A stretch of 64,000 bases of DNA, from assembly GCF_000622325.1 (NCBI RefSeq), contig NZ_JASE01000005.1, positions 2,294,001 to 2,358,000 on the forward strand, in the 5' to 3' direction. The stretch is from Sulfitobacter geojensis (GTDB taxonomy: Bacteria; Pseudomonadota; Alphaproteobacteria; Rhodobacterales; Rhodobacteraceae). Shown here one piece after another: positions 57,592 to 63,867 of this stretch; within the stretch, counting starts at the first letter, position 1, and each line of letters begins with the position of its first letter. The notes beneath the pieces are model-generated. The model saw only the letters and a program-made list of their open reading frames with translations, was not told the DNA's origin and ran no database searches. The position numbers and the translations under genes are program-made.

Positions 57592-58212
57592 ATGTACAAC
57601 CCGACAGCGCCGCAAGATCACACTGGGGTGAGAAAAGATCTACGCATCCTTGTCGTCGAGGCCGATCGCGCCAAAGCGGAAAACATCATCGACGCGTTGC
57701 AAGACGCGGGATGGAGCGAACTGCACGCGATCAGTCATGTTTCAGGGTTAGAGCATTCTATCGAAGAACATGCGCCAGACATCGTTCTGATCGATATGGC
57801 AAACCCCGACCGCGACACGCTTGAACATATTGGTGCCGTTTCCAACACCAGATCACGCGCCGTGGCGATGTTCGTCGATCAAACCGATCCCCATCTGACC
57901 CAAGCGGCCCTTGCCGCGGGGGTAAGCGCCTATGTGGTCGACGGCTTGCAAATGAACCGGATCAAATCGGTGATCGAAACCGCCATCGCCCGTTTCCAGA
58001 TGATGCGCAAAATGCAATCGGAACTTGATGCTGCCAAACAGGCACTGGAAGATCGCAAGACCATCGACCGCGCAAAGGGCATCCTGATGCGCCGCCGCAG
58101 CATTCCCGAGGATGAAGCGTATAAACTGTTGCGCAAGGCGGCGATGGATCAGGGCCGCAAAGTCATTGACGTGGCGCAAGCCTTGGTCACCGCGTCGGAT
58201 CTGTTGGCATGA
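57592..58212 (+). CDS. nasT: Nitrate-responsive antiterminator NasT (ANTAR)
   Basis: A 206-residue protein: an N-terminal receiver-like domain (~15-130, ILVVEADRAKAEN, IVLIDMANPDRDTL) and a C-terminal ANTAR RNA-binding domain with KTIDRAKGILMRRRSIPEDEAYKLLRKAAM. NasT binds two-hairpin leader RNAs and prevents termination. In the family, NasS holds NasT inactive until nitrate is present. The nasS start overlaps its stop by 4 bp. The target leader is visible at 59475-59561. Confidence 0.93.
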   Translation: MYNPTAPQDHTGVRKDLRILVVEADRAKAENIIDALQDAGWSELHAISHVSGLEHSIEEHAPDIVLIDMANPDRDTLEHIGAVSNTRSRAVAMFVDQTDPHLTQAALAAGVSAYVVDGLQMNRIKSVIETAIARFQMMRKMQSELDAAKQALEDRKTIDRAKGILMRRRSIPEDEAYKLLRKAAMDQGRKVIDVAQALVTASDLLA

Positions 58213-59357
58213 ACCGCACGGTTTTGAATTGCGGCTATGTTCCGCTGGTTGATAGTGCGCCACTGATCATCGCGCACGAATTGGGTTTCGCCGCCGAAGA
58301 GGGTCTGGAACTTAACCTCATACGCCAGCCCTCGTGGTCGGCCCTGCGGGATATGCTGGGCCTTGGTCATCTGGACGCCGCACAGATGTTGTCCCCGCTG
58401 CCAGTGGCGATGACGATGGGGCTTGGCGGTCTGTCGGCACAAATCGACACCTTGATGGGGTTGTCGGCAAACGGCACTGTATTCGGCGTCTCCAAACAGC
58501 TTTCCCACACCCTTTCGCCCATCGAATTCGGCAATCCCAAATCCTTGCTGGCTCAGCTTGAAGCGCGTGGACCTCGCCCCTTGCGCGTGGGTGTTCCCTT
58601 TCCTTTCTCGATGCATCGGTTGTTGCTGTCTTACTGGACGGCCTCTGCGCCGAACCTCGTTGTGGAAAGTGTCACCGTGCCGCCCCCGCGCATGGCCGAA
58701 GCGGTCGCCGAAGGGCATGTCGATGCCTTTTGGGTTGGTGAACCCTGGGGCAGCGATATTGTATCACGCGGCGTTGGCGACATTGCGATGGCAGGATCCC
58801 ATGTCTGGGGTTTCGCGCCCGAAAAAGTGCTGGCTGCCCGCCATGACTGGACAGAAAACAACCCAGAGACGGCCCAAAAGCTGATGCGCGCGGTCTATCA
58901 GGCGTCGCGCTGGCTTGATCTGGAACAGAACAAACCGCTGGCTGTCGAAATTCTGGGCCGCAGCGAGCACTTGAACCTTGCCCACGAGGTGATCGAACCG
59001 GCGGTGACCGGCATGCTGACCCTCAGCGCAGGGGCTGCCCCAACACATGTCTCGCAATTTTTGATGTTTCACGATCACGCGGCCTCCTTTCCGTGGCGCA
59101 GTCAGGCGGCGTGGATCGCCAAACAGCTCGGCGCGGATGCAGCCGGCATCGCTTTGGCCATGACCTGTTGTCGCACCGATCTCTATCGCAAATACCTCGG
59201 TCCCATCGGCGCAGATTTGCCCGGTGCCTCGGAAAAGGTTGAAGGCGCGATGAACGAAATGACCGCCGTCGCCTCATTGCGCGGACAGATGATTCTTGCG
59301 CCAGATGCATTTTTTGACGGCAACACGTTCGATTTTTCAGCAGATACGGCTGAATAA
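58209..59357 (+). CDS. nasS: Cytoplasmic nitrate/nitrite sensor NasS
   Basis: A 382-residue protein of the NrtA/CmpA binding-protein fold that lacks a signal peptide: it starts MNRTVLNCGYVPLVDSAPLI. RVGVPFPFSMHRLLLSYW and AFWVGEPWGSDIV, the ligand loops of NrtA, are conserved. In Azotobacter and Paracoccus, NasS binds NasT and releases it when nitrate or nitrite binds. Overlap with nasT by 4 bp fits equal production of the two. Confidence 0.92.
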   Translation: MNRTVLNCGYVPLVDSAPLIIAHELGFAAEEGLELNLIRQPSWSALRDMLGLGHLDAAQMLSPLPVAMTMGLGGLSAQIDTLMGLSANGTVFGVSKQLSHTLSPIEFGNPKSLLAQLEARGPRPLRVGVPFPFSMHRLLLSYWTASAPNLVVESVTVPPPRMAEAVAEGHVDAFWVGEPWGSDIVSRGVGDIAMAGSHVWGFAPEKVLAARHDWTENNPETAQKLMRAVYQASRWLDLEQNKPLAVEILGRSEHLNLAHEVIEPAVTGMLTLSAGAAPTHVSQFLMFHDHAASFPWRSQAAWIAKQLGADAAGIALAMTCCRTDLYRKYLGPIGADLPGASEKVEGAMNEMTAVASLRGQMILAPDAFFDGNTFDFSADTAE

Positions 59358-59474
59358 ACGGGCGGTTTGTGGCCATGCGGACATTTTTGACGCTGCAACG
59401 CAGAAAAACATTGTGCCACGCAGCGAAGCACCTAATCGTAGGGACAAGACAGCAGGCGCTGCCGCCTGACACCT

Positions 59475-59561
59475 TTCCGCCAATGACGGTGGAATTCTCT
59501 CAAGAGCAAAGCCGCTCGTAAGAAGCATGGATTTTCCGTGGCGCTTACGTGTGGCTTTTTT
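59475..59561 (+). promoter_or_regulatory. NasT-type (ANTAR) antiterminator leader upstream of nrtA
   Basis: Hairpin 1 is TTCCGCC-AATGAC-GGTGGAA (59475-59494). Hairpin 2 is GAGC-AAAGCC-GCTC (59504-59517). Both hexaloops have A at position 1 and G at position 4, the recognised ANTAR rule. The terminator left arm AAAGCCGCTCGTAAG (59508-59522) shares bases with hairpin 2, pairs with CTTACGTGTGGCTTT (59544-59558), and ends in TTTTTT. Formation of hairpin 2 therefore excludes the terminator. NasT binding would thus permit transcription of the nrt-nir operon. Confidence 0.85.
59544..59561 (+). terminator. Intrinsic terminator within the nrtA leader
   Basis: The right arm and T-run of a 15-position stem (left arm at 59508-59522; one G-U pair, one mismatch), with an inner stem CATGG / CCGTG in its loop. 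It would stop transcripts about 40 bp before nrtA unless the anti-terminator hairpin forms. Confidence 0.8.
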
Positions 59562-59602
59562 CGTTTTACGGGCCCCGCCCATCCAACCACAGGACGTATA
59601 AA

Positions 59603-60976
59603 ATGATTGCAAAACTCCCCGTCGCCCTTGCTACAACCGGCATGCTGCTGAGCACGGCCGCCTATGCCGAAATGCTCGATCTTGAAAAAGACGAGCTGAC
59701 CTTCGGCTTCATCAAGTTGACCGACATGGCCCCGCTCGCTGTGGCTTACGAAAACGGCTATTTCGAGGACGAAGGCCTGTTTGTGACCCTTGAGGCGCAG
59801 GCCAACTGGAAGGTGTTGCTTGACGGTGTGATCGACGGGCAGCTTGACGGCGCGCATATGTTGGCCGGTCAGCCGCTGGCCGCGACAATCGGATATGGCA
59901 CAGAGGCGCATATCATCACGCCCTTCTCGATGGATTTGAACGGGAACGCGATTACCGTTTCCAACGACATCTGGGAACAGATGAAGCCGAACGTGCCGAA
60001 GATGGACGATGGCCGCCCGCAGCACCCCATCTCAGCCGAAGCGCTGGTGCCGGTTGTCGAAGCGTATAAGGACGAAGGCCTGCCCTTTAACATGGGGATG
60101 GTGTTTCCGGTCTCCACCCATAACTACGAAATCCGCTATTGGCTGGCCGCCGGTGGTCTGGAACCGGGCTATTACGCGCCTGAGGACGTGACAGGAACAA
60201 TCGGCGCGGATGTCTTCCTCTCCGTCACCCCGCCCCCGCAAATGCCCGCCACGATGGAGGCCGGGACGATCTACGGTTACGCCGTGGGCGAACCGTGGAA
60301 CCAACAGGCGGTATTCAAAGGCATCGGCGTGCCCGTCATCACCGATTACGACATGTGGAAGAACAACCCCGAAAAGGTCTTTGGCATCACAAAGGAATTC
60401 GCGGATGAGAACCCCAACACGACATTGGCCCTGACCAAGGCGCTGATCCGTGCGGCGATCTGGCTTGACGAAAACGACAACGCCAACCGTGAAGAAGCGG
60501 TCGAGATGCTGGCGCGCTCCGAATACGTCGGGGCCGATGCCGAAGTCATCGCGAATTCCATGACCGGTTTCTTCGAATTCGAGAAAGGCGACCGTCGTCC
60601 CGCGCCGGACTTTAACGTCTTCTTCCGCTACAACGCGACCTACCCGTTTTATTCAGACGCCATCTGGTATTTGACCCAGATGCGCCGCTGGGGCCAGATC
60701 GCCGAACCGCAGTCGGATGAATGGTTCATTGATCAGGCCAAAAAGGTCTATCGCCCTGACATCTATCTTGAGGCGGCCCGCCTGCTGGTCGACGAAGACA
60801 TGGCAAATGAGGCCGACTTTCCCTTCGACAGCGATGGTTTCAAACAGGCGACACCGGCCGAAGATGTCATCGACGGCATCCCCTTTGACGGGCGCACCCC
60901 CAACGCCTACCTCGACAGCCTGCCCATCGGTCTGAAGGGCGCGCAGAAAATCATCGACAACGAAGTAAAAGGCTAA
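59603..60976 (+). CDS. nrtA: Nitrate ABC transporter substrate-binding protein
   Basis: A 457-residue periplasmic nitrate-binding protein. The ATG at 59603 follows AGGACG and opens a Sec signal ([19 protein letters not shown], cleavage after AYA). [36 protein letters not shown] and [15 protein letters not shown] are the NrtA/CmpA signatures that shape the anion site. Its expression should depend on the ANTAR leader in front of it. A hairpin before nrtB may keep its level above that of the membrane parts. Confidence 0.94.
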
Positions 60977-61046: not shown

Positions 61047-62135
61047 ATGTCTGTCACCGACCCCGATACATTTACGACCCAAACCCTGGACAAAGAGGCC
61101 AAGCGCGCCCGCCTGTTCACCCGCATCAACAAAGCCGACAACTGGTTTCAGGTGCTGGGTCTTGCCTGGCTGACACCGATCCTGAAAGCCGCCGCAGGCG
61201 ACAATCCGCGCGCGCAAGTCGGTGAAATCTGGCGTCTGTTGGGCGTGCCACTGCTGGCGATTGCCCTGTTCCTGCTGGCTTGGGGCACGCTGGCACCAAA
61301 GGTGCAAACCTCGCTGGGTGCCGTGCCCGGTCCCGCGCAGGTCTGGGAACAAGCGCTCAGCCTGAACGCCGACGCCATCCGCGAACGCGAGAAAGAGGCC
61401 GCGTTCTACGAACGTCAGGACGCGCGCAACGCGAAATTGATCGCCGACGGTCAAGAGGACCGCGTCAAACAGCGCAGCTATACCGGGCGTCCCACGTATT
61501 ACGCGCAAATCTGGACCTCGATCAAAACCGTCTTCTTCGGTTTTTTGATCGCTGCCATCATTGCCATTCCGTTAGGCATTGCCGCAGGCCTGTCGAAAAC
61601 GGCAAATGCAGCGCTGAACCCGCTCATCCAGATCTTCAAACCTGTCTCGCCGCTTGCATGGCTGCCGATTGTAACCATGATCGTCTCTGCGCTTTACGCC
61701 AGTAACGACGGGATGTTCTCCAAATCCTTCCTGATTTCGGCCATCACCGTGACCCTCTGCTCACTTTGGCCAACGCTGATCAACACGTCCCTCGGGGTGG
61801 CCAGCATCGACAAGGATCTGGTCAGCGTCAGCCGCGTTCTGAAGATGAACACATGGACCAAGATCACCAAACTGGTTCTGCCTTCCGCCCTCCCCCTGAT
61901 CTTTACGGGTCTGCGCCTCTCGCTCGGCGTGGGTTGGATGGTTCTGATCGCGGCCGAGATGCTCGCGCAAAACCCCGGTCTTGGCAAATTCGTCTGGGAC
62001 GAGTTCCAGAACGGGTCCTCTCAGAGCCTCGCCAAAATCATGGTCGCAGTGTTCACGATCGGCATCATCGGCTTCTTGCTGGATCGCGTCATGTATGCGC
62101 TGCAGTCCATGTTCACCTTTTCGGCCAACCGGTGA
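61047..62135 (+). CDS. nrtB: Nitrate ABC transporter permease
   Basis: A 362-residue permease: a long N-terminal cytoplasmic part, a first helix (LLAIALFLLAWGTLA), then a hydrophilic insertion (EREKEAAFYERQDARN) before the BPD_transp_1 core. The ATPase-contact loop is VASIDKDLVSVSRVLKMNTWT, and MLAQNPGLGKFVWDEFQ is the NrtB end. The insertion is common in proteobacterial nitrate importers. AGGATACC precedes the ATG. Confidence 0.94.
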   Translation: MSVTDPDTFTTQTLDKEAKRARLFTRINKADNWFQVLGLAWLTPILKAAAGDNPRAQVGEIWRLLGVPLLAIALFLLAWGTLAPKVQTSLGAVPGPAQVWEQALSLNADAIREREKEAAFYERQDARNAKLIADGQEDRVKQRSYTGRPTYYAQIWTSIKTVFFGFLIAAIIAIPLGIAAGLSKTANAALNPLIQIFKPVSPLAWLPIVTMIVSALYASNDGMFSKSFLISAITVTLCSLWPTLINTSLGVASIDKDLVSVSRVLKMNTWTKITKLVLPSALPLIFTGLRLSLGVGWMVLIAAEMLAQNPGLGKFVWDEFQNGSSQSLAKIMVAVFTIGIIGFLLDRVMYALQSMFTFSANR

Positions 62136-62178: not shown

Positions 62179-63867
62179 ATGAGCATTCTCAGTATCAAAG
62201 ATGTAAACAAGGGTTTTGGCGTCGGAACCGACCGCGCCGAAGTTCTTCGAAACATCAACCTAGAGGTCAAAGAGGGCGAATTCCTCGCCATCCTCGGATT
62301 TTCCGGCACAGGAAAATCCACTTTGATGAACCTCATTGCGGGGCTTGAATTGCCCGACAGTGGCACGCTGACCTATCGCGGCGCGCCGATCACCGAACCC
62401 GGACCAGAGCGCGGCCTGATCTTCCAAAGCTATTCGTTGATGCCGTGGCTGACGGTAGGCGGCAATGTGGGGCTCGCAGTGGACGCGGTCTTTCCCAAAC
62501 TGGGCAAGGCGGAGCGCGAGGCAAAGATCAATCATTACGTTTCCATGGTCGGCCTGCCCCACGCCATTTCGCGCCGGCCGGCCGAATTGTCGGGCGGCAT
62601 GCGCCAACGGGTCGCCGTTGCGCGGGCGCTGGCAATGAACCCCGAAATGCTGCTGCTTGACGAACCGCTTTCGGCGCTGGATGCGTTGACGCGGGCTAAT
62701 CTGGCGGATGAAATTCTGGAGATTTGGGAAAGTGACAAGAAAACCTGCATCCTGATCACCAACGATGTGGACGAGGCCATCCTGCTGGCTGACCGGATTG
62801 TCCCGCTGAACCCTGATGGCACTTTGGCGGAACCGATTGACGTGAACATCCCCCGCCCGCGCGACCGGATGGAGATGAATAATGACGAAACCTTCAAGGC
62901 CCTGCGCGCCAGTGTCACGAAATACCTGATGGATGTGGGCATTGAGGCAAAGGTCGACGAAAGCAAAACCCTGCCCAATGTGACGCCCATTCATGCCGTA
63001 CCCAAAGCAGTGTCGGACGCGCAGAAAAGCCCCATCGAAGAACGCTATCTGAACTTCTCGCAGCTGCACAAAGTCTATCCTACCCCCAAGGGGCCGCTGA
63101 CCGTGGTCAAGGATTTCGATCTCAAGGTTAACAAGGGCGAATTCATCTCGCTGATCGGGCATTCCGGGTGTGGTAAATCAACGGTGTTGACGATGGCCGC
63201 CGGCCTGAACCCGATTTCCAAGGGTGCGATCAAACTGGACGGTTGGAACGTTGAAGGCGCGGACCCCGAGCGTGCCGTCGTGTTCCAATCCCCCAACCTG
63301 TTCCCGTGGCTGAGCGCCAAGGAAAACGTCGCAATCGGTGTCGACAAAGTCTATCCCCGCGCATCGCAGGCCGAGCGGCAGGATGTCGTGGAGTATTACC
63401 TCGAACGTGTCGGGCTCGCGGACAGCATGGACAAGGGAGCGGCGTCGCTTTCCAACGGCATGAAGCAACGCGTCGGCATCGCGCGGGCCTTTGCGCTTTC
63501 ACCGAAACTGCTGTTGCTGGACGAACCCTTCGGCATGCTCGACAGCCTTACGCGCTGGGAATTGCAGGAGGTTCTGATGGAGGTCTGGTCGCGCACCAAG
63601 GTCACCGCCGTTTGTGTCACCCATGATGTGGATGAAGCGATCCTGCTGGCCGATCGCGTGGTGATGATGACCAATGGGCCGCAAGCGACAATCGGCAAGA
63701 TCACCGACGTGAAACTGCCCCGCCCGCGCACCCGCAAGGCGCTGCTGGAGCACCCGGATTATTACACCTACCGGCAGGAGGTGCTCGATTTCCTTGAGGA
63801 ATACGAACATGGCAACACCTCCAAATCGGCGCAAACCACGCCCTCGAAACCCATCGCTGCGGAGTAA
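62179..63867 (+). CDS. Nitrate ABC transporter, fused tandem ATP-binding protein (NrtC/NrtD-like)
   Basis: A 562-residue protein with two ABC domains in one chain. Domain 1 (~1-245) has Walker A GFSGTGKST, signature LSGGMRQRVAVARAL and Walker B LLLDEPLSALD, but its H-loop reads ILITNDVDEA with Asn 195 in place of the usual His. Domain 2 (~295-545) has GHSGCGKST, LSNGMKQRVGIARA (Asn in place of the first Gly), LLLDEPFGMLD and a normal VCVTHDVDEA. The two sites of the fused dimer are thus unequal. AAAGGA precedes the ATG. Confidence 0.92.
   Translation: MSILSIKDVNKGFGVGTDRAEVLRNINLEVKEGEFLAILGFSGTGKSTLMNLIAGLELPDSGTLTYRGAPITEPGPERGLIFQSYSLMPWLTVGGNVGLAVDAVFPKLGKAEREAKINHYVSMVGLPHAISRRPAELSGGMRQRVAVARALAMNPEMLLLDEPLSALDALTRANLADEILEIWESDKKTCILITNDVDEAILLADRIVPLNPDGTLAEPIDVNIPRPRDRMEMNNDETFKALRASVTKYLMDVGIEAKVDESKTLPNVTPIHAVPKAVSDAQKSPIEERYLNFSQLHKVYPTPKGPLTVVKDFDLKVNKGEFISLIGHSGCGKSTVLTMAAGLNPISKGAIKLDGWNVEGADPERAVVFQSPNLFPWLSAKENVAIGVDKVYPRASQAERQDVVEYYLERVGLADSMDKGAASLSNGMKQRVGIARAFALSPKLLLLDEPFGMLDSLTRWELQEVLMEVWSRTKVTAVCVTHDVDEAILLADRVVMMTNGPQATIGKITDVKLPRPRTRKALLEHPDYYTYRQEVLDFLEEYEHGNTSKSAQTTPSKPIAAE

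Follow-up and report, generated by a model that had tools for sequence, protein, structure and literature searches.

A predicted NasT antitermination leader with three ANTAR-type hairpins upstream of nrtA in Sulfitobacter geojensis

Introduction

ANTAR two-hairpin antiterminator RNAs have been described for EutV and eut, NasR and nasF, and AmiR and amiE (PMC3369931, PMC7496416). In eut leaders the two hairpins are separated by a linker of 5–12 nt, and the A29 and A53 positions of eutP imply a loop spacing of 24 nt (PMC3369931); a C-G pair closing the loop was preferred in SELEX with NasR (PMC7496416). In P. denitrificans, NasT binds the nasA leader RNA, nitrate dissociates the NasS–NasT complex and the freed NasT is oligomeric, with about six subunits; the authors of that work mention 'a series of regulatory hairpins' and give no detail (PMC3795266). 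Two hairpins of this leader, HI and HII, have been named, and mutation of HI destroys induction (PMC5424462). In the open-licence papers searched, we found two-hairpin elements only and no description of a three-hairpin ANTAR element.

Here we analyse the leader of nrtA in S. geojensis, which lies in a window of 64,000 nt (the whole stretch of DNA that was analysed). Judged from its sequence, the leader is very probably a NasT-controlled antitermination leader of nrtABC-nirB-nitrate reductase-cysG with a three-hairpin platform. A defined RNA switch would then control the nitrate-assimilation operon of this marine bacterium.

The nasT-nasS-nrtABC locus

An earlier note on this DNA, made from the letters of the window, had placed nasT about 1.3 kb upstream of the leader. 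This is borne out, as hairpin 1 begins 1.26 kb downstream of the nasT end and the encoded protein carries both PF00072 and PF03861. The genes of the locus are the following:

57592–58212, plus strand: nasT (PF03861, E = 5e-22; PF00072, E = 1e-7)
58209–59357, plus strand: nasS, NrtA-like nitrate/nitrite sensor (PF13379, E = 3e-62)
59603–60976, plus strand: nrtA, nitrate ABC transporter substrate-binding protein (PF13379, E = 4e-92)
61047–62135, plus strand: nrtB, permease (PF00528; TIGR01183 ntrB, E = 9e-47, below the TIGR01183 cut-off)
62179–63867, plus strand: nrtC, nitrate ABC transporter ATPase with two ABC domains (TIGR01184 ntrCD, E = 1e-177)

The start of nasS overlaps the stop of nasT. 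As expected of a NasS–NasT pair, NasT combines a receiver-like domain with ANTAR, and NasS is an NrtA-like protein without a signal peptide; the N termini were compared by eye, with a signal-like start seen in NrtA and no obvious signal peptide in NasS. A genome-wide domain search returned NasT as its single match, making it the sole ANTAR protein of the S. geojensis genome, and the solved structures closest to it are Rv1626, NasR and AmiR. Past the window end lie nirB, a gene for a nitrate-reductase-like molybdoenzyme and the siroheme synthase gene cysG, with one extra open frame (PF02885) between the latter two. The gene order, checked past the window edge, is nrtABC-nirB-nitrate reductase-cysG, and we infer that nrtA is the first gene under the leader's predicted control.

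Of 58 genomes from the genus, just 11 have a DNA match to the leader region (59300–59660), which suggests that the operon is patchy, reflecting gain or loss of nitrate assimilation.

Anatomy of the leader

Between nasS and nrtA, the leader is predicted to form four structures:

59453–59468, plus strand: P0, outermost ANTAR-type hairpin (caggc-GCTGCC-gcctg; loop with G1 rather than A, and G4)
59475–59494, plus strand: P1, hairpin 1 (ttccgcc-AATGAC-ggtggaa; 7 bp including one G·U)
59504–59517, plus strand: P2, hairpin 2, the putative antiterminator (gagc-AAAGCC-gctc)
59508–59561, plus strand: intrinsic terminator (left arm 59508–59522, right arm about 59544–59558, T6 at 59556–59561)

The earlier note had read this leader as two hairpins with the hexaloops AATGAC and AAAGCC, each with A1 and G4. 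Both hairpins were recovered at exact coordinates, with A1 and G4 at 59482 and 59485 in P1 and at 59508 and 59511 in P2; the count of two did not hold, as the third hairpin at 59453–59468 had been missed. Bases 59508–59517 are common to P2 and the left arm of the terminator, exactly as had been claimed, and the two structures are mutually exclusive. Linkers of 6 nt (59469–59474) and 9 nt (59495–59503) separate P0 from P1 and P1 from P2, respectively. The P0 loop lies 24 nt upstream of the P1 loop, which in turn lies 26 nt before the P2 loop, and a C-G pair closes the loop in all three hairpins of the window.

RNA folding, which had been proposed as a check, gave a minimum free energy of −29.1 kcal/mol for 59504–59562 and showed the 163-nt leader to be more stable than every one of 200 dinucleotide-shuffled versions (z = −3.1). 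In stepwise folding, the three hairpins together are predicted to be the most stable state for as long as the right arm is untranscribed; once that arm is made, the terminator is ahead by about 10 kcal/mol.

Rarity of the element in the genome

Two A1/G4 hairpins together with an overlapping terminator were found once on the plus strand of the window and 0 times on the minus strand; in 100 strands of 64 kb simulated with a first-order Markov model, the count was 0.0 per strand. The P2-like pattern AGCAANGNNGCT has 31 sites in the genome versus 32 for the reversed control; among the 30 sites inspected, the nrtA leader alone combines a terminator overlap with a partner A1/G4 hairpin upstream. 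When the genome was scanned with a covariance model derived from relatives, only the nrtA leader and its antisense terminator mirror were returned. Antisense matches at the same loci arise from the inverted symmetry of the terminator and were discarded. Further NasT targets in the genome were thus found neither by the P2 pattern (30 of 31 sites inspected) nor by the covariance model.

A scan with 'the ANTAR-hairpin covariance model' had also been proposed; Rfam 15 appears to offer no such model, and our own was built instead. Searching the window and the leader against Rfam 15 gave no family above threshold, and a mir-373 match far below threshold was set aside as chance. From the searches with the nrtA leader, release 15 appears to be without an ANTAR-RNA family, which our alignments could seed. 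We supply an alignment and a covariance model for this element, apparently absent from Rfam.

Conservation among Rhodobacterales leaders

Next, the leader was compared with its relatives in an alignment of 34 Rhodobacterales leaders, a set weighted towards Roseobacter-type lineages. The earlier note had made its reading depend on conservation of the A1/G4 loops and of the overlap between hairpin 2 and the terminator, and both are conserved. The overlap is kept in 34/34 leaders. P1 and P2 each have G4 in 34/34; A1 is found in 34/34 P2 loops and in 26/34 P1 loops, the remaining P1 loops having G1. All stem bases and five of the six loop bases of P2 are invariant. Its 5′ strand, GAGC, is invariant despite its position outside the main stem of the terminator, which points to selection on the P2 hairpin itself. 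A change of A3 to C in the P2 loop of two leaders is matched by a change of U to G in the right arm of the terminator. Across the alignment the terminator helices are 99.8–100% paired, with changes on both sides. For the whole structure, 13 pairs are changed on both sides versus 5.6 ± 1.4 in shuffles, and 0 of 500 shuffles reached the observed covariation value on any of five measures.

Co-occurrence with ANTAR genes

The covariance model matches 44 of 198 family genomes and an ANTAR domain is found in 100 of the 198; all 44 element-bearing genomes have an ANTAR gene (hypergeometric P = 2e-16), and for most element matches the ANTAR domain is located about 1.4 kb upstream. Two genomes in which cysG is not linked to nrtA have a second element match before cysG: a strong match in G127 (L132, about 2015–2127) and a weak one, at 24.7 bits, on the minus strand in G248 (L113, 4899–5013). 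NirB needs siroheme, so a NasT regulon would be expected to have an extra element before an unlinked cysG. In a further, fragmented genome (G065; L093 / L163), an nrtA homologue is preceded by a NasT-type leader, and the contig that carries them has no ANTAR match.

Together, the sequence of the leader, its rarity, the sole ANTAR protein encoded next to it, its conservation and its co-occurrence with ANTAR genes make NasT antitermination the best explanation, supporting the earlier proposal that nrtA-nirB transcription would be switched by NasTS.

The third hairpin

The leaders were also scanned without regard to loop sequence: the terminator served as anchor, the best-paired stem was taken in each fixed upstream interval, and the loop was read last. 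This loop-blind scan returned A1 together with G4 in 54/63 leaders for P0, 35/64 for P1 and 64/66 for P2, and in 6/77 control intervals (Fisher P = 3e-22 for the enrichment of P0 over the controls). In the subset of leaders retrieved solely through the NasT protein, the P0 loop has both A1 and G4 in 26/30. The P1 loop measures 7 nt in 23/64 leaders, with a persisting preference for A or G at position 1 and G at position 4, well above control windows. The closing C-G pair is present in 58/63 leaders for P0, 50/64 for P1 and 65/66 for P2.

In the 34-leader alignment, the P0 stem has compensatory changes and its loop has G4 throughout (34/34) and A1 in all but three (31/34): the window and its closest relative (L042), both with G1, and L012. 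By this comparison of sequences, the upstream hairpin that is better conserved across the family is the outermost P0, not P1. Loop-to-loop distances in 45 leaders average 27.6 nt between P0 and P1 (range 23–34) and 23.4 nt between P1 and P2 (18–29), with the loops of P0 and P2 45–57 nt apart. Three such loops are also found in Rhodobacter, Sulfitobacter and Sphingomonas plasmid records, and only two hairpins in Sinorhizobium and Methylocella records and in some other alphaproteobacterial leaders.

The region upstream of P0

An inverted repeat, CTGCATTGCGGCA ... TGCGGCAATGCAG, is conserved in relatives (L010, L013, L016 and others) between the nasS stop and P0. It lies about 115–150 nt upstream of P2, has a half site in 18 of 32 leaders and is degenerate in the window, around 59385–59425. 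The repeat looks like a promoter operator, but it is unlike sigma-54 sites and does not fit the NtrC consensus of P. denitrificans. Between nasS and P0 of 32 Rhodobacterales leaders, this NtrC consensus has 0 matches, and sigma-54-like patterns likewise have 0. Hyphomicrobiales nas leaders (L166, L168, L171) are preceded by TGGCA...TTGC/CTGC, resembling sigma-54 −24/−12 promoters. Between Hyphomicrobiales and Rhodobacterales, the RNA switch may have been retained through a change in promoter type.

Proposed mechanism and alternatives

We suggest that without nitrate NasS would hold NasT, the terminator would form and transcription would end about 40 nt before nrtA. In the presence of nitrate or nitrite, freed NasT would bind the ANTAR hairpins on the emerging RNA and clamp P2, whose 3′ strand would then be barred from the terminator, allowing the polymerase to read through. 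P0 is assumed to lie within the transcript. The three evenly spaced hairpins would offer two overlapping two-hairpin registers, P0 with P1 and then P1 with P2, and our preferred course is that NasT would load first on P0–P1 and then be handed or extended to P2. Three points favour early loading on P0–P1: the conservation of P0 exceeds that of P1, the freed NasT of P. denitrificans is oligomeric, and the essential HI of that species is compatible with P0. This last match would hold if the HI distance is counted to the 3′ end, and uses computed distances rather than the paper's figure.

Our tentative proposal, judged somewhat less likely than not, is that NasT of Rhodobacterales recognises the three hairpins as an oligomer or as two or more dimers, engaging P0–P1 before P2 is made, and that the outer site is decaying, with the switch reverting to two hairpins, in the Sulfitobacter-like lineage. 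If true, ANTAR recognition here would be unlike the one-dimer, two-hairpin model and would gain a head start over terminator folding. With the P0 loop adenine lost in S. geojensis, P1 with P2 probably carries most of the switch, and the two-hairpin mode may be the working one in the window genome, where the P0 loop starts with G and folding can close it to a tetraloop.

The A1 and G4 of P0 in the loop-blind scan, more frequent than those of P1, together with its closing C-G pair and its stem compensations, argue against a plain two-hairpin element, in which one NasT dimer would sit on P1 and P2 and P0 would be an accessory or relic (RNA-stabilising or pausing). Such an element is possible, if rather doubtful: the published model needs just two hairpins (PMC3369931, PMC7496416), the 9-nt linker between P1 and P2 is within that of eut leaders, P0 is without A1 in the window and in L042, and several non-Rhodobacterales leaders have a single upstream ANTAR hairpin, 18–22 nt before P2.

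We consider it unlikely that the true NasT pair is P0 with P2, P1 being a spacer that joins them and the wrong partner having been picked earlier. P0 and P2 have the loops with the strictest A1/G4, and the distances given for HI and HII of P. denitrificans (137 and 91 bp), of which HI is essential, differ by 46 bp, close to the P0–P2 spacing; however, the loops of P0 and P2, at 45–57 nt, are separated by roughly double the distance in eutP, where the linker can be altered only slightly, and P1 keeps A or G at position 1 and G at position 4 beyond what control windows have. Last, it is highly improbable that an ordinary terminator closes the nasTS transcript here, with a hairpin likeness by chance and an nrtA promoter downstream, since terminators between two transcription units are common but this one has its T tract ending only about 40 nt before nrtA, an invariant GAGC outside its main stem, conserved ANTAR loops, co-occurring ANTAR genes and copies before unlinked cysG.

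The conserved third hairpin opens to experiment the number and register of the ANTAR monomers that engage the nascent leader before the terminator forms. This hairpin is also a possible explanation for the essential HI in Paracoccus and for the oligomeric state of freed NasT.

Comparison with known systems

Like the ANTAR two-hairpin RNAs, the leader has A1/G4 hexaloops, closing C-G pairs, a second hairpin overlapping the terminator, linkers that fall within 5–12 nt and a target in nitrogen metabolism, and in Rhodobacterales the loop spacings of both registers are like that of eutP (24 nt). Unlike these RNAs, Rhodobacterales leaders have a third hairpin upstream and a middle loop that is often 7 nt, and the outer hairpin of the window has G1. 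The leader thus has every sequence-testable feature of ANTAR two-hairpin RNAs except a hairpin count of exactly two, so assignment to NasT stands, as a switch of a kind already described. The third hairpin, with a role that we infer, would be a variant on the described ANTAR antiterminator.

As in the nasABGHC operon of P. denitrificans, nasT-nasS lies directly upstream and the leader lies between nasS and the first structural gene. The P. denitrificans leader (NZ_CP141053.1) has three loops with A or G at position 1 and G at position 4 (AACGGC, AATGAT and GACGAT), 25 and 23 nt apart. The operons differ in content: that of P. denitrificans is led by nasA and is without nrtABC, whereas the S. 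geojensis operon opens with nrtABC and continues with nirB, nitrate reductase and cysG. In Bradyrhizobium diazoefficiens, too, NasT acts by antitermination on nitrogen-oxide genes through leader hairpins; there it governs a dispersed regulon of several operons (PMC6759348), whereas the S. geojensis genome has one site.
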